DNA of 64,000 nucleotides from Immundisolibacter sp. (GTDB lineage: Bacteria > Pseudomonadota > Gammaproteobacteria > Immundisolibacterales > Immundisolibacteraceae). The notes under the pieces are model-generated. The model did no database searches, was not told the origin of the DNA, and saw nothing but the letters and a program-made list of their open reading frames with translations. The stretch spans positions 1 to 64,000 of the forward strand of contig NZ_JACIZD010000004.1 in the NCBI RefSeq assembly GCF_014359565.1, in the 5' to 3' direction. The position numbers were made by a program, and so were the translations under genes. The number at the start of each line of letters is the position of its first letter. Within the stretch, counting starts at the first letter, position 1. Shown in pieces: positions 321 to 24,509 of this stretch.

Positions 321-374
321 CTATCGAGGTGTCCACTTCGATTGGACCAGGACAGGCTGGAAGATTCGCCATTT

Positions 375-439
375 GTGGGAGGCCCGCCCCCGGGCCGAAT
401 GGGTGCCACGACGATTCGCGGCGAGGGCGCCGCTCCCAC
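375..439. repeat. REP doublet (first copy)
   Basis: Two different palindrome-rich units face each other: GTGGGAGGCCCGCC...GGGCCGAAT, then ATTCGCGGCGAGGGCGCCGCTCCCAC. Both begin or end in GTGGGAG/CTCCCAC. The same pair recurs in clusters at 1003-1230, 2941-3078 and 4270-4608. The doublet lies about 100 bp upstream of the REP-associated transposase gene, as expected of REP/BIME elements. Confidence 0.85.
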
Positions 440-541
440 TACCCTGGTAAAACTCCGAACAACTCCTCGCACCGGCTAGACTCACCCCTGTCCAGACAAC
501 CACCGGAGCCGGGAAACCTGTTTTCCGACGGAGCACCCCCG

Positions 542-979
542 ATGCGCTTTGCCTCGCACCGGCTGCGGCGCGGCCGGGTTTCGGAAGCCGGCCGCGCCTA
601 CCTGGTCACCGCCACAACCCTGCAGCGGCGCCCGGTGTTCGCGGACTGGACCGCCGCTCGCCTGCTGGTGTCGGCTCTGCGCCGCGAAAATGACTGCGGC
701 GCGGCCACGACCCTCGCCTACGTGGCCATGCCGGACCATCTGCACTGGCTCATGCAACTTGGCGAGGGTGTCACCCTGGCCACCGTGGTCGGCCGGGTCA
801 AGAGTGTGGTGGCCCATGCCATGACCGGGCCGATCTGGCAGGCCGGCTTTCACGACCACGCCGTGCGCGCGGACGAGGATCTGGCGCGCATCGCCCGCTA
901 TCTGGTGCTGAATCCCGTGCGGGCCGGCTTGGTGCAGCGCGTCGGCGACTACCCGCACTGGGATGCCATCTGGCTGTAA
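542..979 (+). CDS. REP-associated tyrosine transposase (RAYT, TnpA_REP family)
   Basis: This 145-residue protein starts MRFASHRLRRGRVSEAGRAYLVTATT. The opening is the characteristic N-terminus of the Y1_Tnp/TnpA_REP family (IS200/IS605-like HUH enzymes). The HUH metal-binding motif is visible in PDHLHWLMQL and the catalytic tyrosine region in IARYLVLNPVRAGLV, which is a family signature. RAYTs nick and join single-stranded DNA at REP palindromes and are thought to spread them. The gene sits between REP clusters at 375-439 and 1003-1230, so the REPs are probably its own substrates. The ATG at 542 is preferred over upstream in-frame starts because homology begins there. Length is near the short end for the family but all key motifs are present. 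Confidence 0.9.
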   Translation: MRFASHRLRRGRVSEAGRAYLVTATTLQRRPVFADWTAARLLVSALRRENDCGAATTLAYVAMPDHLHWLMQLGEGVTLATVVGRVKSVVAHAMTGPIWQAGFHDHAVRADEDLARIARYLVLNPVRAGLVQRVGDYPHWDAIWL

Positions 980-1337: not shown

Positions 1338-2852
1338 TCAGAAGAACTTCTGCAGCGGCGCGCAGGTATTGCCGTAGTGGGTCGCCTTGGCAACATTGCT
1401 GTTGGTGGTCGGGTCGTAGTTGATCGGCAGCGCGATGGTGGCTTCCTTCGGGCCGGCCGCCAGCGTGCTCAGCACGGCCGGGTCGCCGATCAGCTCGATG
1501 AACTCGTCGGCCACGTCTTTCTTGAGGCCGCCCAGTGCCGACGCGCCAGCCGTCGTGTTGCGGTACTGGAAGGACAGCTCGACGGCGAAGTCGTAACGCC
1601 CTTCTCGGTGGTTGGCCTTGGTCGGCGCGATGCCGCACTCAAGCTGATCGGCGTTGGTGCACTCGAAGGCGTCGGTCGCGGGGTTGATGCGACCGGCACC
1701 GTCCAGCGCGCGGAACGACCAGCCGTTCTCGCTGTTCAGGCTGTCCAGCGACAACACGCCGATGGCCTTGGTGGCCGGCGCCAGGCTGAACCGGACCTTG
1801 TAGACCTTGCCGTCGTCGCCGGTGAAGGTGTGATCCGTACCGGACTGGGCCCGCGCTAGGCAGTCGCGCACGTTGCCCGAGGAGGGGTTCTCGACCACCG
1901 TGTAGCCCGCGCTCGGATCGATCAGGATCGGGTCTGCCGAGGTCCCGGCATGGGCGCTGTCGTAACCGGCGCTGTCCGCCATGCGCGCCGGCGGCGTGGA
2001 AGCGGCGGTGCCGTGCAGGCTGTTCTGGGCGCACGGGAAGTTGTTGAAGAACCAGTTGTAGCTGGCCTGCGTGCCGGAGCCCTGCACGCGGCGGCACACC
2101 GCCACCGGACCGCTGATGCTGCCGTCGGCCACATTGCCCCAGTCCGTGATCAGGCCGGACAGCATGGCGCCGTACTCGGCGCGGCTGATCGGCAGCGTGT
2201 CGGGCACGGCGTTGGTGGCGACGATACCCATCATCAGCGAGCTGGCGCCAAACTGGGTGCCGTCGAACACAACCGCTTCTGTCGGGTCGAGCTGATCAGC
2301 ACCGAACTCTACATTGTACGGACCCTTGAACATGTTCGGCTCGACGTCCGACACGCCGAAGTCGGGAACCCGGTTGTCGGCCGTGGGGGTGAGATCGTTA
2401 CCCACCTCCGGGCAGCGATAGATGCCAGTGTTCAGCGTGCAGGAGGCAGAATCGATCTTCATGGTGGCGATGGCCTCGGCGCGGGCCACCGGGTTCACGC
2501 CCCACACCGAGCCACCCTTGGCGCGGTTGACCAGCAGCACCTTCTTGCCGTGCAGGCTGGCCTTGATGCTCGGGTCGGCTTTCACCACGCCGAAGTAGGC
2601 GCGGTAGCTCCTGCCGTCGTCACCAAAATTGTTTGTGGAGCCGTTGTTGTCGTGGTAAACAAAAATACCTTGGCTCGAATCGAACAGCTTGTTGGCGACT
2701 TCGCCTAGCAGATTCTGCGGCGCCGAGGCACCTGACAGGTAGATGTCGACGTCCGGTGCTTCGAACGCGGTCAGCGCCAGCGCCTGGCCGGCGGACAGAC
2801 TCAGCGCCGCGGCACAGGCCGCCGCCAGCGGATTCAGTTTGAACAGGGTCAT
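1338..2852 (-). CDS. Secreted PstS-like substrate-binding-fold protein
   Basis: The protein has 504 residues starting MTLFKLNPLAAACAAALSLS, a signal peptide with probable cleavage after ALA. The start at 2852 is chosen over a longer frame because AAGGAG lies 7 bp upstream. Several segments resemble phosphate-binding PstS proteins: YLSGASAPQNLL near the mature N-terminus (compare GAGATFPAPL), DFGVSDVEPNMF (compare DFGASDAPL), LSGLITDWGNV (compare the GKITxW segment) and RRVQGSGTQASYNWF (compare the DGSGTT phosphate loop). Several cysteines suggest disulfides. I infer a periplasmic or exported protein of the PBP type-2 superfamily; the ligand is unknown. No pst transporter genes are nearby, and its neighbour is a PEP-CTERM protein. 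The gene stands alone with its own terminator. Confidence 0.6.
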   Translation of the reverse strand: MTLFKLNPLAAACAAALSLSAGQALALTAFEAPDVDIYLSGASAPQNLLGEVANKLFDSSQGIFVYHDNNGSTNNFGDDGRSYRAYFGVVKADPSIKASLHGKKVLLVNRAKGGSVWGVNPVARAEAIATMKIDSASCTLNTGIYRCPEVGNDLTPTADNRVPDFGVSDVEPNMFKGPYNVEFGADQLDPTEAVVFDGTQFGASSLMMGIVATNAVPDTLPISRAEYGAMLSGLITDWGNVADGSISGPVAVCRRVQGSGTQASYNWFFNNFPCAQNSLHGTAASTPPARMADSAGYDSAHAGTSADPILIDPSAGYTVVENPSSGNVRDCLARAQSGTDHTFTGDDGKVYKVRFSLAPATKAIGVLSLDSLNSENGWSFRALDGAGRINPATDAFECTNADQLECGIAPTKANHREGRYDFAVELSFQYRNTTAGASALGGLKKDVADEFIELIGDPAVLSTLAAGPKEATIALPINYDPTTNSNVAKATHYGNTCAPLQKFF

Positions 2853-2940
2853 TGCAGGAACTCCTTCGGATGGAAGATTGGAAATAGACAAGTCAAGGAG
2901 ACAATTACTCAATGAGCGGTTTGGTGAGGGTCGATCCGCC

Positions 2941-3118: not shown

Positions 3119-3976
3119 TCAGGCCAGCGCCCGGCTGCGCCGGCGCGCCACGGCACCGGCGCCCAACAGGCCCAGGCCCAGCAGCGCCCAGGTCTCGGCT
3201 TCCGGCACGGCGGCGAAGGTCAGGGTGCCGTCGCTGGCCAGCGTCCAGATCGCCGGCGCCGAGGCGCCGAAGAACTGCGTGGCACTGATCTTGGAGCTCA
3301 CAGCAGCGCCATTCGACAGCGACCAGAAGTTGAGCCCCTGGTCCAGCCAGCCGGCGTTGCTGAAGTTGGCCCAACCACCGAAGGCGGCACCCCAACCGCC
3401 ACTGCCGGAGTACGCTTGGTCGTTGCCCAGACCGTCGCCGATCACCTCGATGTTGGAACCGTTTTCCTGAGTGTCGTGCGTGCCCAACGTGCCGGATTGG
3501 GCCTGCGACACGTAGACATTGAACGCACCCAGCATGTTGCCCATCTGGACACCGCTCAGCGCCTCGATCGTGGCCTCCGTGACGGACGACAGCGCGGTGG
3601 TCAGTATCTTGCGTGTATTGAGGGTGGTGCCGGTTGAGTCACCGCCCACCACGTTCCACCGCACGCTGCCCAGGCTGCCGTTGGCGGTCGAGTCGGCCAG
3701 GAACTGCGTCAGCAGGGCGTCGGGGGCAAAGCTCATCTGCAGCGGGGTGCTGTTGGAGATGATGCCGCTTTGCGAACTCACGCCGGCCGGGGTCAGCGTG
3801 CTCTGGAAAATGCCCATATCCAGGGTGTAGCCAGCCTGGCGCGCCGAATCCCATACCGACAGCACCATCTCGCTGTTGCCGGTGGAGGCGGGCACGATGT
3901 TGGCCGAAGCCTGGCCGGCGCCCAGCGCCAGCGCCACCGCGCCGGCCAGGGTCGTCAATTTCAATGTCGTCTGCAT
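3119..3976 (-). CDS. PEP-CTERM sorting-domain protein
   Basis: This 285-residue exported protein starts MQTTLKLTTLAGAVALALGAGQASA, a signal peptide. Its C-terminus is a PEP-CTERM-like tail: VPEAETW, then a hydrophobic helix (ALLGLGLLGAGAVA), then RRRSRALA. Such tails are recognised and cleaved by exosortase and mark proteins for the cell surface or biofilm matrix. The middle is rich in Ser, Thr, Gly, Asn and small residues with no catalytic motif I recognise. The start at 3976 follows GAGGGAG at good spacing; the longer frame upstream would overlap the riboswitch. No exosortase gene is in the window. The riboswitch-like leader suggests control by a cyclic dinucleotide, which would fit a surface or biofilm role. 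Confidence 0.85.
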   Translation of the reverse strand: MQTTLKLTTLAGAVALALGAGQASANIVPASTGNSEMVLSVWDSARQAGYTLDMGIFQSTLTPAGVSSQSGIISNSTPLQMSFAPDALLTQFLADSTANGSLGSVRWNVVGGDSTGTTLNTRKILTTALSSVTEATIEALSGVQMGNMLGAFNVYVSQAQSGTLGTHDTQENGSNIEVIGDGLGNDQAYSGSGGWGAAFGGWANFSNAGWLDQGLNFWSLSNGAAVSSKISATQFFGASAPAIWTLASDGTLTFAAVPEAETWALLGLGLLGAGAVARRRSRALA

Positions 3977-4057
3977 GGTCGATACTCCCTCGCAAGGAAT
4001 GATGAAGCCGGCGACATGCCGGCCGCTCGAACGAACGGAGAGTGCATCCAGGGGCCG

Positions 4058-4152
4058 CTTTGGCAACCCGGCGGTCTTGGTGGCCTCAGGCGAGGGCAAC
4101 AAGATCCGTGGCTTTCCGGCCCCGCCTCACGACGGGTGTGGCATTTGTCCCG
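4058..4152 (-). promoter_or_regulatory. GEMM-type riboswitch candidate (c-di-GMP-I or cyclic AMP-GMP)
   Basis: Reading the minus strand from about 4152, the order of conserved pieces is that of GEMM-I RNAs. First comes GGGACAAATGCC. Next is a hairpin CCCGTC-GTGA-GGCGGG with a GNRA loop, the tetraloop of the docked stem. Then come GGAAAGCCACGG and a second arm, ending AAGACCGCCGGGTTGCC (the GCxGGGUUGCC receptor strand). ACAA just before the first stem resembles the cyclic AMP-GMP subtype (A at the position that is G in Vibrio Vc2). The start codon of the PEP-CTERM gene is about 80 nt downstream. Between them is a hairpin GCCGGC-N5-GCCGGC (4007-4023) that could be the expression platform. Identified by eye; a covariance model would decide. 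Confidence 0.7.
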
Positions 4153-4269
4153 CGGCGGCCCGAAGACCCCCACGCGCCGCCCGGGACATCCAGGCGACGG
4201 GGGCAGACTAGCGACCGATAGTTACGCGGCGCTTACCGTTTGATGACAGTTTTCGCGACCGGCAGGCGA

Positions 4270-7556: not shown

Positions 7557-9259
<1,703 letters not shown>

Positions 9260-9263
<4 letters not shown>

Positions 9264-10352: not shown

Positions 10353-13069
10353 GACTCGGCCTGCGCGTGTGTGGGTGGGGCAACTTCGTCGGCGGCTGTC
10401 GGCGGCGGCGCCAACGGCAGGGTAAACACGAAACGGGCGCCGCCTTCGGGGCGATTTTCGGCCCGGATGTGCCCGCCGTGGGCGTCGATGATGGCCTGGC
10501 AGATGGCCAGGCCCAACCCCACGCCGGCAATCGCCGATTCGCGCTGCCCGCGGGTGAAGCGGTCGAAGATGATCCGCTCCTGGCCCGGCGGCAGGCCGGG
10601 TCCTTCGTCCCACACCGCCACCTCCAGCACATCGCCGGCCACGCGGGCGGTGATGCCCAGCGGCGTGCCGGGCGGCGTGTACTTGATGGCGTTGTCGAGC
10701 AGGTTCACCAGCACCCGCTCCAGCATCACCGCATCGCCCTGCACCAGCGGCAGGTCGGCCGGCAGGTCGGTTTGCAATGGATGGCCGGCGAGCGACGGCT
10801 CCAGCGCCTTGATCGCTGCGCCGATGAGCTCCTCCAGCGCCAGCCACTCCTTGCGCGGCTGCACCGTGCCCGATTGCAGGCGCGCCATTTCCAGCAGGTT
10901 GTCGACCAGCCGGCTGGTGCGCAGCGCCTGGTCGCGGATGGCTGCGGCGGTTTCGCTCTCCGGCGCCTGTACCGCCAGCAGTTGCAGCGTCAGCGTGTCG
11001 GCCAGCCCCACCAATGCGGTCAGCGGCGTGCGCAGATCGTGCGACAGCGCCGCCAGCAGCGAGCTGCGCAGGCGCTCGGATTCGGCGCCGAGCCGACTGC
11101 CGTGCGCTTCGGTAGCGAAATGCAGGCGCTCCAGCGCCATCGCGATCAGGGCCGCGTAGGTCTCCAGCAGGCGGCGCTGTTCGGGGATGTGCAACAGGCG
11201 CGGGTGACTCGGCTCCACTACCAGCACGCCGCGCACCCCAACCGGCGCCTTCAGCGGCAGGTAGGCGGCACGGGCAGCCGGCAGGGTGTCGGTGCCGACA
11301 CCGGCCGGCTCGCCGTGGTCGAAACACCACTGCGCGATGGCCACGTCCACGGTCGGTGCCTGCCCGTCCTGGGGCCGGAGCTTGCCGGCGGCATCGGGCA
11401 GCAGCACGGTCGCCTGGGCGCGGAAGCTCGCCTCCACGAAGCGGTCGCTGATCGCCGCCACCTGCGCTTCGCTCAATGCCGAGGCCAGCGCCTTGGCCAT
11501 CTGGTAGAGGTTGCGAATGCGCTCCTCGCGGCGTCCGGCGATGCGCGCCTGGTAGCGCAGCAGCGCGGTCAGATGGCCGATGGTCAGGCCCACGATCAGC
11601 ATCACGGCGAAGGTGAGCAGGTACTGGGCATCGCTGACGGCAAAGGTCAAACGCGGCGGCACGAAGAAGAAATCGAACAGCGCCACCGACAGCACGGCCA
11701 GCAGCGCCGCCGGCCCGCGTCCCCAGCGGAACGCCGCCAGCACCACGCCGAGCAGGAACAGCATGACGATGTTGGTCAGCTCGAGGTAATCCCGCAGGGG
11801 CGTGGCCAGCGCCGTGATGCCCAGGCACAGCAGCGCCGCCGCGACGTAACGGGGCCAGATCGCCTTGGCGATCCGGGGCGCGGGCGCGTCGTCAACCGCC
11901 ACACGGCGTTGCGGTGGGCGCCCGTCGTCAGCGCGACGGGCCACCGCGATCAGGTCGATGTCCGGCGCCCGCTCGCTCAGGCGGCGCATGAACTGGCCCC
12001 ACCAGCGCCGCTGCGGTCGCGCCCGCCGACCGATGACGATCTTGCTCAGGTTGCGCTCGCGAGCGTAGTCGAGCGCCGCATCCACCAGGTCCGGCGCCGC
12101 CAGCACCGCCGTTTCGGCGCCCATCTCCTGCGCCAGCTTGAGGGTGGCGAGGATGGCGCTGCGCTGCGCTTCCGGCAGGCGCTGCAGGCGCGGCGTTTCG
12201 ATGTAGATCGCATGCCAATGGGCGTTCAGCCGGCTCGCCAGGCGTGCCGCCGTGCGCACCAGCTTGCCGTCGGTGTCGCCCGGCCCCAGGCACACCAGCA
12301 GCGATTCGCTGGTGGCCCACACCTGGCTGCCGGGCGTGGCCAGGCGCGCGCCCTGCATCTGCGCATCCACCCGCTCGGCGGTGCGTCGCAGCGCCAGATC
12401 GCGCAGCGCGATCAGGTTGCCGCGGCGAAAGAAATGCTCGGCGGCCCGCGCCGCCTGCTCGGGCAGGTAGACCTTGCCCTCCTTGAGACGCGTCAGCAGG
12501 TCGTCCGGCGGCAGGTCGACCAGCGCCACCTCGTCGGCGGCGTCGAATACCTGGTCGGGCACCGTCTCCCAGACCCGCACGCCGGTGATGCCGCCGACCA
12601 CGTCGTTGAGGCTCTCCAGGTGCTGCACGTTGAGCGTGGTCCAGACATCGATGCCGGCGGCGAGCAGTTCCTCCACGTCCTGCCAGCGCTTCGGATGCCG
12701 GCAACCGGGCAGATTGGAGTGGGCGAGTTCATCCACCAGCAGCAACGCCGGGCGCCGGGCGAGGGCAGCGTCGAGGTCGAATTCCGTCAGCATGCGGCCA
12801 CGGTGCTCGACCGGCTTGCGCGGCAGGATTTCGAGGCCATCCAGCAGGGCCTCGGTCTCCGGCCGGCCGTGCGTTTCGACCAGCCCGACCACCACCTCCA
12901 CGCCCTGCGTGCGCGCCTGCCGGGCCGCCGCCAGCATGGCGTAGGTCTTGCCCACGCCGGGCGCCGCGCCGAAGAAGATCTTCAGCTTGCCGCGCCGCGC
13001 CGCCGCCTCGTCCGCCGTCACCTGCCGCAGCAGGGCGTCCGGGTCGGGGCGACCGGGGACCTCAGTCAA
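10334..13069 (-). CDS. kdpD: Osmosensitive K+ channel sensor histidine kinase KdpD
   Basis: KdpD is a membrane kinase that senses K+ limitation and phosphorylates KdpE. The 911-residue protein has the standard order. The N-terminal KdpD domain comes first, with Walker [14 protein letters not shown] (about residues 34-46). A universal-stress-protein-like domain follows. Next are four membrane helices (about 400-490, [15 protein letters not shown] onward), a GAF-like region, the H box ([13 protein letters not shown]) and the ATPase domain ([22 protein letters not shown]). The start codon is TTG at 13069, overlapping the kdpC stop by 8 bp; no better start exists before the first conserved residues. 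Confidence 0.97.
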
Positions 13070-20456: not shown

Positions 20457-21275
20457 TCAGGGGTGGTGGGGGAACTGCGAAACGGATGCCGGCGCGCGGC
20501 GCGGGCGCATGGCGCTGGCCAGCGCGGCTGCCAGTTCCGGGGACGTGTGGGCCTCGGGACTGCGCAGCGGCAGGTCGTAGGTGATGGTGGCGCCGTAGGC
20601 GGTCGGGTCCTGCGGGTCCCAGCGCGGCTTGTCGAACACCAGCAGGCGGGTGCCCAGCGCGAAGCCCTCGTGCAAATCGTGCGTGACCATGAACACGGTA
20701 AGACCCAGCCGCTGCCACAGCGCCGTCAGCAGCGCGTGCATGTCCTTGCGCGTGCCCGGATCGAGCGCGCCGAAGGGTTCGTCCAGCAGCAGGATGGCCG
20801 GCTCCATCACCAGCGCCTGGGCAATCGCCAGGCGTTGGCGCATGCCGCCGGACAGCGCCGCCGGGTATTTGGCCTCGTCGTCGGCCAGGCCGACGGCTTC
20901 CAGCATGGCCCGGGCGCGGGACAGCGCCACGCGCCGCGTACGGCCGAACAGGTGACCGGTGAAGCGTGCCCGGTCCAGCTCCAGGCCCAGCAGCACGTTG
21001 CCCAGCACGGTCAGGTGCGGGTAGACCGAATAGCGCTGGAACACCACGCCGCGCTCACGCCCCGGCTCGGCGGCCAGCGGCTTGCCGTCCAGCAGAATCT
21101 GCCCACGCGTGGGTTTGAGCTCCCCCAGCAGCAGGCGCAGAAAGCTGGTCTTGCCGCAGCCCGACGCGCCGACGATGGTGACCAGCTCGCCGGCCGGCAC
21201 ATGCAGCTCGATCCGCTCCAGCACCGGCGTGGCGCCGTAGCGCAGCCACAGGCCGTTGACGTCCAGGCCGCTCAT
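20457..21275 (-). CDS. ABC transporter ATPase, probable guanidine importer
   Basis: The 272-residue ATPase is of the NitT/TauT/SsuB type. It has Walker A GASGCGKTSFL, Q-loop VVFQRYSVYP, signature ALSGGMRQRLAIAQAL, Walker B ILLLDEPFGALD and switch H in VTHDLHEG. A C-terminal extension of about 60 residues follows. The ATG overlaps the permease stop by 4 bp. The substrate is inferred from the guanidine-I riboswitch ahead of the operon and the guanidinase gene 21 bp after it. Confidence 0.9.
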   Translation of the reverse strand: MSGLDVNGLWLRYGATPVLERIELHVPAGELVTIVGASGCGKTSFLRLLLGELKPTRGQILLDGKPLAAEPGRERGVVFQRYSVYPHLTVLGNVLLGLELDRARFTGHLFGRTRRVALSRARAMLEAVGLADDEAKYPAALSGGMRQRLAIAQALVMEPAILLLDEPFGALDPGTRKDMHALLTALWQRLGLTVFMVTHDLHEGFALGTRLLVFDKPRWDPQDPTAYGATITYDLPLRSPEAHTSPELAAALASAMRPRRAPASVSQFPHHP

Positions 21276-22090
21276 GCGCCGTTGTCCTCCACCCACGGGA
21301 ACCAGCGGCGGGCGAGCGCCGCCAGCGTGCGGTCCATCGCATACGCCAGCAGCGTGATCCACGCCACGTACGGCAGGATCACGTCCATCGCCATGTACCG
21401 GCGCACCAGAAAAATCCGGTAGCCGAGGCCATCGGTGGCGGCGATGGCCTCGGCCGCGATCAGGAACAACCAGGCCGGCCCCAATGTCAGGCGCAGGCCG
21501 TGCACGAGCGCCGGCAGGGTTTGCGGAATCACCACCCGCAGGGCGATCTGCCAGGTGCTGGCGCCCAGCGTCTGCGCCTTGATCACCTGTTCGCGCGGGA
21601 TCTCGCCCGCCCGCTGGGCCAGATCGCGCATCAGAAACGGCGCCACGCCAAAGCCGATCAGCACGATCTTGGACAGCTCGCCCAGCCCCAACACGATGAA
21701 CAGGATCGGCAGCAGCGCCAGCGGCGGGATCATCGACAGCACCGCCACCAGCGGCCCGAGCGTGGCGCGCACCAGTGGGATCAGGCCCATCGCCACGCCC
21801 ACCGCAAAGCCCAGCACGGCGCTCACGCCCACGCCCCAGGTCAGGCGCTGCAGGCTGGCGGCGGTATCGGCCCACAGCAGCACGCTGCCGCTGCGCGCAT
21901 CCGGCTGCGTGGCCAGGCGCACCGTGGTGTCCGCGAGCGTTGCCAGCGACGGCAGGAGCTTGTCGTTGGGGTTCGCCGCCAGGCGCGCGTCGGAGCCGAT
22001 CAGGTAGGCCAAGGCCAACAGGGCCAGCGGCAGCACCCCCAGCACCAGCGCGCTGGCGCGGCCGGGGCGGCGATTGAGCAGGCGGGTCAT
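21272..22090 (-). CDS. ABC transporter permease, probable guanidine importer
   Basis: The 272-residue inner-membrane protein has about six helices and the BPD_transp_1 EAA loop (EQVIKAQTLGASTWQIALRVVIPQTLP), which docks to the ATPase. The N-terminal helix is [17 protein letters not shown]. It resembles NitT/TauT permeases. It starts 18 bp after the substrate-binding protein gene. Confidence 0.9.
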   Translation of the reverse strand: MTRLLNRRPGRASALVLGVLPLALLALAYLIGSDARLAANPNDKLLPSLATLADTTVRLATQPDARSGSVLLWADTAASLQRLTWGVGVSAVLGFAVGVAMGLIPLVRATLGPLVAVLSMIPPLALLPILFIVLGLGELSKIVLIGFGVAPFLMRDLAQRAGEIPREQVIKAQTLGASTWQIALRVVIPQTLPALVHGLRLTLGPAWLFLIAAEAIAATDGLGYRIFLVRRYMAMDVILPYVAWITLLAYAMDRTLAALARRWFPWVEDNGA

Positions 22091-22108: not shown

Positions 22109-23170
22109 TTACAGCGCGCCGTCGGCCGCCATCTTCATGTAGGTGTCGTCAAAACGCAGCTTCACGTTGCCGGCATCGCCCAGCGTTTTGCCGCCCGGAA
22201 AGGCAATGCCCACCGCATCGGCGCTCCTGGCGCCCTCGCCCAGCAGCCCGTGGGCGAACGAGAACGTGCGCACGTAATCCATGGTGCGCAGCAGGGCCGG
22301 ATCGCGGCTGAAGGCCACCGCCTCGGCCGGCTCGTAGAACATCTGCGTGGTGGCGAGCTGGCTTTCGAAGCCGGCCAGGTCGGTTCCGGAAGCCTTGGCC
22401 ATGGCCTCGCGCGCGGCCTTGCCGGCGGCGTCCTGCGCGGCCATCAGCGCCATGGTTTCGTACCAGGCGCCGGTCAGCGCCTTGCCCAGCGCCGGGTTGG
22501 CCGCGAGCGTGGCCGAGTTGACCACCAGCAGGTCGATGATCTCGCCGGGAATATCGGACGAATCAAATACCAGCGACGCGCCCGGCAAGGCCTTGACCTC
22601 GGCCAGCTGCGGGTTCCAGGTGACGATGGCGTCCACATCCGGCGCCGCCGCGGCGGCCACGATGTCCGCATCGCCGGTGTTCACCACGGTGATGTCGCGC
22701 TCGCTCAGCCCCACCGACTCCAGCGCCCGCGCCAGCAGGTAGTGCGAAACCGATAGTTCCACCAGATTCACCTTGCGGCCCTTGATGGCCTTCAGGTCCG
22801 TGGCGCCCTTGAGCACCACGCCGTCGTTGCCGTTCGAGAAATCGCCCACGATCAGCGCCGTGGAGTCCACCCCGCCGGCCGCCGGGATGGTCAGGGCGTC
22901 CATGTTGGTCATCACGCAGCCGTCGAAGGCGCCGGCCGTGTACTGGTTGATGGACTCGACGTAATCGTTGATCTGCACCACGTCGATGCTGATGCCGTAC
23001 TTGTCGGCCCACTTCTTGACGATGCCGGTATCAGCCGCGTGGCCCCACGGCATCCAGCCGACATAGATGGACCAGGCGATGCGGAAGTCTTTCTTGGGCG
23101 CCGCCTGCGCCGGAGTGGCGAGGCCAACCGCCAGCACGGCGGTAAGCAGCAGGGTGGTCAAGCGGTTCAT
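22109..23170 (-). CDS. Periplasmic substrate-binding protein, probable guanidine-binding
   Basis: The 353-residue protein starts with a signal peptide MNRLTTLLLTAVLAVGLATPAQA. The mature part begins KKDFRIAWSIYVGWMPWGHAADTGIVKKWADKYG. The AWSIYVGWMPW opening is that of the ABC binding proteins found next to urea-carboxylase genes, enzymes later shown to act on guanidine. NitT/TauT-like two-lobe fold. CAGGGAG precedes the ATG at 23170. First gene after the guanidine-I riboswitch, which strongly supports guanidine as ligand. Automatic annotation may call it a urea or sulfonate binding protein. Confidence 0.88.
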   Translation of the reverse strand: MNRLTTLLLTAVLAVGLATPAQAAPKKDFRIAWSIYVGWMPWGHAADTGIVKKWADKYGISIDVVQINDYVESINQYTAGAFDGCVMTNMDALTIPAAGGVDSTALIVGDFSNGNDGVVLKGATDLKAIKGRKVNLVELSVSHYLLARALESVGLSERDITVVNTGDADIVAAAAAPDVDAIVTWNPQLAEVKALPGASLVFDSSDIPGEIIDLLVVNSATLAANPALGKALTGAWYETMALMAAQDAAGKAAREAMAKASGTDLAGFESQLATTQMFYEPAEAVAFSRDPALLRTMDYVRTFSFAHGLLGEGARSADAVGIAFPGGKTLGDAGNVKLRFDDTYMKMAADGAL

Positions 23171-23248
23171 GGTGCGCTCCCTGTGGTGGAAGCGCCGGGG
23201 GGCCGGCGAGCGAAATGCCAGGCGCCGTGGACCCCAGCGCAGCTAACA

Positions 23249-23346
23249 TCTCCCGGGCTTTTGTCCCGCCGTGTACCCGGTCCTGTGGGGGCCGGGCTGC
23301 CTCTCTCGGACCAGCACCCGGCCGCAGCCGAATCGGAACCCTAGAC
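23249..23346 (-). promoter_or_regulatory. Guanidine-I (ykkC) riboswitch
   Basis: On the minus strand the conserved blocks appear in the right order. CTAGGGTTCCG (complement of 23334-23344) comes first, then GGTCCGAGAGAGGCAG. ACACGGCGGGACAAAAGCCC and GGGAGA close the aptamer near 23249. These are the near-invariant nucleotides of the ykkC class, which binds guanidinium and turns genes on. The start codon of the transporter operon is about 80 nt downstream. Between them is a perfect hairpin CGCCGG-CCCC-CCGGCG (23193-23208) close to the ribosome-binding site, with no T tract. Control may therefore be at translation. The promoter must lie within the divergent M16 gene. Confidence 0.93.
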
Positions 23347-23351
23347 GCAAC

Positions 23352-24509
23352 GTGAACTTTGCAATCCCTGTGCCACACCCTGCCGCCACGACCACGCAGG
23401 CCCTTCCCAACGGCGGGCGAATCACCTTCGATCCGCGTCCGCAGGCCGCTTCCGTCGCCGTGGTGCTGCGTCTGGCAGGCGGCACGCGCGAGGAAACCGC
23501 CGCCGATGCCGGGCATCTGCACCTGCTGGAACACCTGCTGCTGCGGCGCACCGCCCGCAGCGATTCGTCGGCACTCGCCCGGCGCATCACGGCGCTCGGG
23601 GGCATGGTCAATGCCGAGACCGGCCGCGAACATCTGGCGCTGATCGGCCGCGCGCCGGCCGGGCAGGCGTCCGCACTGGCCGAGCTGCTGGTCGAGTGCC
23701 TGTGCGAACCGGCCTTCGACGAAACCGACCTGGCACTGGAACTGGGCGTGATCGAAGCCGAACGCACTTTCGTGGGGCAGACGCCGCCCCACGAGGCCCT
23801 GATCCGGCTCGCCTGGCCGCAGCATCCGCTCGGCCGGCTGGTGCTGCCGGCCGATCCGGCATCTGCCGGCCCGGCTGCGCTGCAGCGACTGTGGGCGCGC
23901 CAGTGCGTCGGAGCACGGCTTGGCGTCGCGGTCGTCGGCGCTTTCGATGTTGCCGCGGTCGAAGCAGCGCTTGCGCCGCTGGCAAGGCTGCCCGCCGGCA
24001 CCGCCCCCGACTGGGGAGCACCGCCCGAGTTCGTGCCCGGCCGTTACGGCGATCTGCGCGATGAGCGGCCAGCAAGCCTGCTGTGGGCACTGCCGTGCAT
24101 GCCCTACGACCGCGCCGCTACGGCGGGCTGGGAATTGACCGCAGCGGTGCTGGAATTCACCCTCGCCGCGGCGCTGCGGGACAGCGGTCTTGCCTACGCG
24201 TGCGCGGTGTGGCCAGAGTTCCATTCGGATGCCGGCCTGATCGCGGTGCAGGTATCGACGGTGCCGGGCCGGGTCGCCGCCTGTGCCGACGCGGTGAATG
24301 CCTGCCTGGATGCGCTGGCGAACGAAGGCTCGAGTTCGGAAATGACGAACCTCGCGCGCGACGCCCTTTCAGCGCGCGCAGCGCTGGCCCGGGACGACCT
24401 GGAAAACCAGGCACAGGCGCTGACGCAGCATCCGCCCGGCATCGAGCCGGCGCCCGGCCAACGGATCGTGCTGCCGGCCGCCGGCTGCGTGTTGCAGATC
24501 GTGGTATGA
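23352..24509 (+). CDS. M16-family metallopeptidase-like protein
   Basis: The protein has about 385 residues if it starts at GTG 23352. The inverted zinc motif HxxEH is intact (HLLEH, residues 57-61), and the third ligand Glu lies about 76 residues on in VIEAERTF, as in pitrilysin and processing peptidases. The length corresponds to one M16 half-unit, so it might act as a dimer or with a partner. No signal peptide is evident. The start is uncertain: an in-frame GTG at 23271 lies inside the antisense riboswitch region, and neither GTG has a clear ribosome-binding site. It diverges from the guanidine operon. Confidence 0.8.
   Translation: MNFAIPVPHPAATTTQALPNGGRITFDPRPQAASVAVVLRLAGGTREETAADAGHLHLLEHLLLRRTARSDSSALARRITALGGMVNAETGREHLALIGRAPAGQASALAELLVECLCEPAFDETDLALELGVIEAERTFVGQTPPHEALIRLAWPQHPLGRLVLPADPASAGPAALQRLWARQCVGARLGVAVVGAFDVAAVEAALAPLARLPAGTAPDWGAPPEFVPGRYGDLRDERPASLLWALPCMPYDRAATAGWELTAAVLEFTLAAALRDSGLAYACAVWPEFHSDAGLIAVQVSTVPGRVAACADAVNACLDALANEGSSSEMTNLARDALSARAALARDDLENQAQALTQHPPGIEPAPGQRIVLPAAGCVLQIVV

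Follow-up and report, generated by a model that had tools for sequence, protein, structure and literature searches.

The window examined here, a stretch of 64,000 nucleotides, carries near its start a leader on the minus strand in which a first-pass annotation had recognised a GEMM-type cyclic-dinucleotide riboswitch, placed upstream of a PEP-CTERM surface-protein gene. The locus thus raises the question of whether the leader is such a riboswitch, which dinucleotide it would sense, and how the gene behind it could be controlled.

The aptamer and its predicted ligand

The whole 64-kb window was searched with covariance models of 4227 RNA families. RF01051 (c-di-GMP-I), which has a gathering score of 35 bits, matched the minus strand at 4152..4059 with 52.1 bits and an E value of 2.7e-7 over all 87 model positions (1-87), as the first-pass annotation had led us to expect. 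The match is the only GEMM-I copy in the 3.09-Mb genome. The aptamer is divided as follows.

4059..4152, minus strand: c-di-GMP-I (GEMM-I) aptamer, assigned by its RF01051 score, present as a single genome copy and kept in the congener G001
4142..4148, minus strand: J1/2, ACAAAUG, with G4142 as its last base, placed by covariance alignments and by parsing with Vc2 as control
4116..4141, minus strand: P2, with C-C/G-G lower pairs (4141-4140 with 4117-4116) and the loop GUGA (4130..4127), placed by alignment and parsing
4115, minus strand: A4115, equivalent of the intercalating A47, placed by alignment and parsing
4065..4113, minus strand: P3 with the tetraloop receptor; C4063, just 3' of it, is the equivalent of C92, placed by alignment

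The GEMM-I order of elements that had been described from the letters could be traced in full on the minus strand, with ACAA opening J1/2 (4148..4145), the GNRA loop GUGA capping a 6-bp stem (GCGA in G001), GGAAAGCCACGG at 4117..4106 and CCGGGTTGCC, the 3' end of which lies at 4062. The GNRA tetraloop on P2 and the receptor strands in P3 align to the RF01051 model. In G001 the aptamer scored 51.5 bits, and the RNA, its flanks and the downstream gene are all conserved, the leader being nearly identical. Across the order, the leader and aptamer are carried by two of eight genomes, several of the other six being incomplete assemblies, and the exact leader is common only to this genome and G001. 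When 11 related leaders were aligned, 95.5% of the P2/P3 pair cells were standard pairs, two-sided changes were found in six pairs, and the covariation score was reached by none of 500 shuffles. By every sequence feature tested, the window RNA is a member of c-di-GMP-I.

The base that governs ligand selectivity in this class is G20 of Vc2 and G11 of Cd1 (PMC9262584); its counterpart in an 84-nt cGAMP aptamer is A14, which closes J1/2 directly 5' of P2 (PMC6274999). Both covariance alignments place the corresponding base of the window aptamer at G4142, before the lower P2, and a positional parser that placed Vc2 correctly as a control also gave G4142. The contact bases G20, A47 and C92 (Vc2 numbering) thus correspond to G4142, A4115 and C4063, and from this conserved triad we infer that the ligand is c-di-GMP. 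The A after ACA, A4145, which had been taken as a mark of the cyclic AMP-GMP subclass, stands at the wrong position. The genome encodes 15 GGDEF domains, so c-di-GMP is likely made by the host, and among the 14 domains that cover position LxNR+9 none has the Hypr serine there. We take this position to correspond to Ser348 of GacA, the serine of cGAMP-making Hypr enzymes.

A GEMM-Ib riboswitch sensing 3',3'-cyclic AMP-GMP would fit a J1/2 that opens with ACAA like that of the Geobacter aptamer and a lower P2 in which a C-G pair adjoins the binding site, the Geobacter cGAMP aptamer having a C-G pair next to its own. Single changes in the lower P2 have been reported to affect selectivity (PMC9262584) and, given that report, the unusual C-C/G-G lower P2 calls for caution on the ligand reading. 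However, the selectivity position is occupied by G, not A, and the Hypr serine was absent from all 14 readable GGDEF domains, the one synthase type surveyed. On these two grounds cyclic AMP-GMP specificity was rejected, and we regard it as quite improbable.

The target gene and a putative Pho promoter

The coding sequence behind the aptamer begins 82 nt beyond it.

3119..3976, minus strand: coding sequence (3976..3119) of a 285-aa PEP-CTERM protein (PF07589, 22.5 bits; cut-off 20.7)

The protein has, by eye, a signal-peptide-like N-terminus, and its PEP-CTERM sorting motif scored above the Pfam cut-off. The sole exosortase of the genome, XrtB (330 bits; cut-off 275), is encoded on a different contig from the riboswitch. 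Both marks of a PEP-CTERM substrate, the sorting motif and an exosortase in the same genome, are therefore present, and together with the RF01051 match they bear out the first-pass placement of a GEMM-type riboswitch upstream of a PEP-CTERM gene. The likeness to floc_PepA is weak or distant (NF033554, 38.5 bits, below the curated cut-off of 80). The genome holds five PEP-CTERM genes, and the riboswitch lies upstream of this one only. Upstream of two gammaproteobacterial full-length homologues (L009 and L010), no GEMM-I was found, even at a relaxed threshold.

Upstream of the aptamer we identified two candidate promoter elements.

4217..4249, minus strand: Pho-box-like array, CTGTCAT-CAAA / CGGTAAG-CGCC / GCGTAAC-TATC, three 11-bp-phased repeats forming a putative PhoB site
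4205..4210, minus strand: -10-like TAGTCT, 6 nt past the last Pho repeat, assigned from the shared layout described below

Pho boxes are 11-bp-phased direct repeats resembling CTGTCAT (PMC4415409). The array has such phased repeats, and the genome encodes PhoB (TIGR02154, 340 bits) within a few kilobases of pstS. A textbook-type Pho pattern, CTGTCATNNNNCTGTMA, matched once in the window at no more than one mismatch, with 0.04 matches expected, and the first 18 bases of the array are identical in G001. The layout of n x 11 + 6 nt followed by TAGNNT recurs at the promoters of PhoX (PF05787) and a metallophosphoesterase (PF00149) in both genomes. From the -10-like element, transcription of the leader is predicted to start near 4198. 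A scan of the upstream region for a sigma-70 consensus promoter gave no match. Genome-wide, one-mismatch matches to the Pho pattern were no commoner than those to a reversed-pattern control; what argues for a Pho box is thus where the array lies, how its repeats are phased and its likeness to the phosphatase promoters. None of the genome's four remaining PEP-CTERM loci shows a Pho box at two mismatches, and upstream of other GEMM-I loci there were scattered two-mismatch matches only, which we regard as chance level. Taken together, Pho control of the leader is likely.

Several other elements of the window were recorded. The next gene downstream encodes a 505-aa exported protein (1338-2855, minus strand), which scored 20.6 bits against PF12849, below the cut-off of 27, and which also follows in G001; it is periplasmic-binding-protein-like, and considering the Pho box it may have a link to phosphate. 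REP-like palindromes, GTGGGAGGCCCGCC, flank the PEP-CTERM and binding-protein-like genes between 375 and 4607 in 12 copies (11 perfect, one mismatched), the element having 15 matches in the window where 2.6 would be expected, and an IS200/RAYT-like transposase ORF (PF01797, 24.1 bits) lies inside 329..979. A guanidine-I riboswitch (RF00442, 83.9 bits; 23248-23355, minus strand) precedes an ABC-transporter set consisting of a binding protein (23170..22109), a permease (22090..21272) and then an ATPase. A match to the 5' ureB sRNA (RF02514, 92.2 bits; 8826-9113, plus strand) runs antisense to a gene (9263..7557) resembling that of the urease alpha subunit and may merely reflect coding conservation. 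A 327-aa ORF running from within the aptamer into the PEP-CTERM gene was set aside as a by-product of high GC.

Leader folding and the proposed mechanism

Between the outer strands of P1 and the start codon, the leader contains the following elements.

4155..4161, minus strand: 5' strand of an extended P1, GGGCCGC, directly complementary to 4058..4052; kept in G001
4052..4058, minus strand: 3' strand of the extended P1, GCGGCCC, and predicted alternative partner of GGGGCCG of P2/J2-3, from sequence and folding
4038..4048, minus strand: candidate anti-Shine-Dalgarno strand, GATGCACTCTC, paired with 3991..3981 in the minimum-free-energy fold; kept in G001
4007..4023, minus strand: hairpin GCCGGC-ATGTC-GCCGGC in the interval from aptamer to start codon, with no T run of the length that an intrinsic terminator needs; near-identical in G001
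3981..3991, minus strand: Shine-Dalgarno sequence GAGGGAG (3991..3985) with its flank, 8 nt 5' of the ATG, read directly

On balance, we judge that the leader probably acts as a c-di-GMP riboswitch of class I, gating one exosortase-sorted surface protein behind a probable PhoB-type promoter. Transcription would probably begin near 4198 at that promoter, giving mRNA mainly under phosphate limitation. The nascent RNA would form P2 and P3 and, as the conserved contacts suggest, bind c-di-GMP at G4142, A4115 and C4063. Bound ligand would stabilise the aptamer and the extended P1, deciding whether 4058..4051 takes part in P1 or is instead paired with P2, and this choice would alter access to the Shine-Dalgarno sequence. 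Because the leader has no intrinsic terminator, the level of control is most likely translation. The switch would likely be ON at high c-di-GMP, the sense expected for a surface or matrix protein, and we consider ON somewhat more likely than OFF. After export, the protein would, judging from its C-terminus, be sorted by XrtB and retained at the surface.

The aptamer could instead bind c-di-GMP and act as an OFF switch, or act on transcription through Rho-dependent termination or through weak hairpin termination at 4023..4007. GEMM-I switches of either sense, ON or OFF, have been described (PMC9262584), and a 6-bp GC hairpin does stand between aptamer and start codon, followed in G001 by UCUCAUUUUU. 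However, a scan of the leader for intrinsic terminators gave no match, the hairpin is followed in the present genome by UUCAUCAUU, and an OFF switch is less expected for a presumed matrix or surface target. We consider this alternative rather unlikely.

Thermodynamic predictions of the leader gave little separation between states. The leader fold was no more stable than those of shuffled sequences (z -0.02), and for transcripts beyond 142 nt imposing the aptamer pairs cost 11-18 kcal/mol in this genome and 3-10 kcal/mol in G001. Accessibility of the Shine-Dalgarno sequence hardly differed between the folded states, and no clear alternative state of a two-state switch emerged in either species, whether folding was free or the aptamer was imposed. 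The absence of a clean predicted switch would be unsurprising in a leader so G+C-rich. This poor predicted competition between folds is also what would be seen if the aptamer had decayed and switching had been lost, as are the A-C mismatch in P3 and a score of 52.1 bits, which lies below those of most GEMM-I matches in the bacterial class (range up to 86). Yet every ligand contact is intact, the leader has been conserved in G001 although the protein sequence has diverged, and the aptamer subtype is strongly associated with exosortase genes (see below). A decayed aptamer is, in our estimate, very improbable, and a working c-di-GMP riboswitch remains our preferred reading.

The C-C/G-G subtype and comparison with known systems

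The lower P2 of the window aptamer is C-C/G-G, whereas most GEMM-I aptamers in the class have G-C/G-C; within the C-C/G-G minority the internal loop is often ACA/GCC. We collected RF01051 matches from an even sampling of 369 genomes across the class and recorded, for each locus, which gene comes next and which bases surround P2, restricting the subtype count to the 106 loci having enough downstream sequence. With the subtype defined post hoc, after the data had been seen, and PEP tails called by pattern and eye, an exosortase-type substrate was the next gene at 9 of 21 C-C/G-G loci and at one of the remaining 85 (Fisher p 8e-7), one counted substrate (G368) coming from a genome in which no exosortase was detected. 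Related genomes are not fully independent; counted by bacterial family, the proportions were 7/12 and 1/40 (p 4e-5). Within the 28 counted genomes that have a clear exosortase, the difference persisted (8/10 C-C/G-G loci against 1/42 others; p 5e-7), so uneven presence of exosortases is insufficient to explain the association. One of the two other C-C/G-G loci in exosortase genomes, in G097, precedes a polysaccharide export gene (PF02563, TIGR03027-like), after which chain-length, tyrosine-kinase, ATPase and XrtD exosortase genes continue on the same strand as an EPS operon.

11496..11371, minus strand, of locus L197 (G097:C10:1-14000): aptamer of the C-C/G-G subtype, heading the run from the export gene to XrtD

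A search from the protein side found two PEP-CTERM loci, of the betaproteobacterial genera Nitrosospira and Nitrosomonas that also have an upstream C-C/G-G GEMM-I. From these sequence comparisons, C-C/G-G GEMM-I RNAs appear to lie largely upstream of exosortase-pathway genes in exosortase-bearing genomes. We tentatively propose, with confidence a little short of even, that across gamma- and betaproteobacteria the subtype has a recurrent, dedicated role in controlling exosortase-pathway genes, which encode sorted surface proteins and, in one genome, form an exosortase/EPS operon, and that in the genus Immundisolibacter it sits behind a PhoB promoter, such that one surface protein would read phosphate limitation and c-di-GMP together.

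Further observations come from three genomes. At L197 in G097, CTGTCAT-GAAT-CTGGCG occurs 81 nt upstream of the aptamer and is a possible lead to a Pho box. In G328, two C-C/G-G aptamers lie 1.2 kb apart (L142, around C1:2193635-2194945, minus strand); one precedes a PEP-CTERM gene and the other has A at the selectivity position, and the pair could answer to different ligands. Six C-C/G-G copies in G224 (L146, L150, L151, L153, L158 and L159), most with a TAC internal loop, precede unrelated exported-looking genes and form a distinct local expansion.

The signals that switch on exosortase-sorted proteins are sparsely documented in the literature searched. If the subtype predicts exosortase targets, c-di-GMP control of many anonymous surface proteins would be foreseeable from sequence and testable with reporters, and a leader joining a Pho box to a riboswitch would, if real, be a compact case of two inputs on one surface gene. 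In the open-licence literature we found no earlier report of the subtype-exosortase association or of a Pho-box-plus-GEMM leader. Both the link of the subtype with exosortase genes and the putative Pho promoter are new; the aptamer itself is mostly ordinary and stands before a target class already linked to GEMM-I.

Compared with RF01051 RNAs of the Vc2 type, the window RNA has the same score above gathering, the equivalents of G20, A47 and C92, the GNRA loop with its receptor and the 5' leader position; it differs in its lower P2 (C-C/G-G rather than G-C/G-C), its internal loop (ACA/GCC rather than AAA/GAC) and an extra base in J1/2. It also aligns end to end with c-di-GMP-I-GGC (RF03167) at 53.9 bits, but this is below the gathering score of 59, and the A47 position holds A rather than G; membership in RF03167 was rejected. 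With the Geobacter 3',3'-cGAMP riboswitch (GEMM-Ib) it shares the ACAA start of J1/2 and the C-G pair by the binding site, whereas the selectivity base is G here and A there, and no Hypr GGDEF domain was seen in the genome.

The linkage of GEMM-I to PEP-CTERM genes is itself already known from Methylophaga nitratireducenticrescens GP59, in which four c-di-GMP riboswitches lie upstream of PEP/VPLPA-CTERM genes, and transcript levels differ between biofilm and planktonic growth (PMC12530212). The RNA class and the class of sorted surface protein are the same in both systems. However, the four GP59 riboswitches are clustered beside EPS genes, whereas here there is one copy, with the exosortase on another contig and a putative Pho box upstream. 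In Pseudomonas fluorescens Pf0-1, phosphate (Pi) limitation controls adhesion via c-di-GMP, the phosphodiesterase RapA lowering c-di-GMP so that LapA is lost from the surface (PMC3032545). In both cases phosphate and c-di-GMP inputs meet on a surface protein; in contrast to Pf0-1, both inputs would here act on the promoter and leader of the gene itself.
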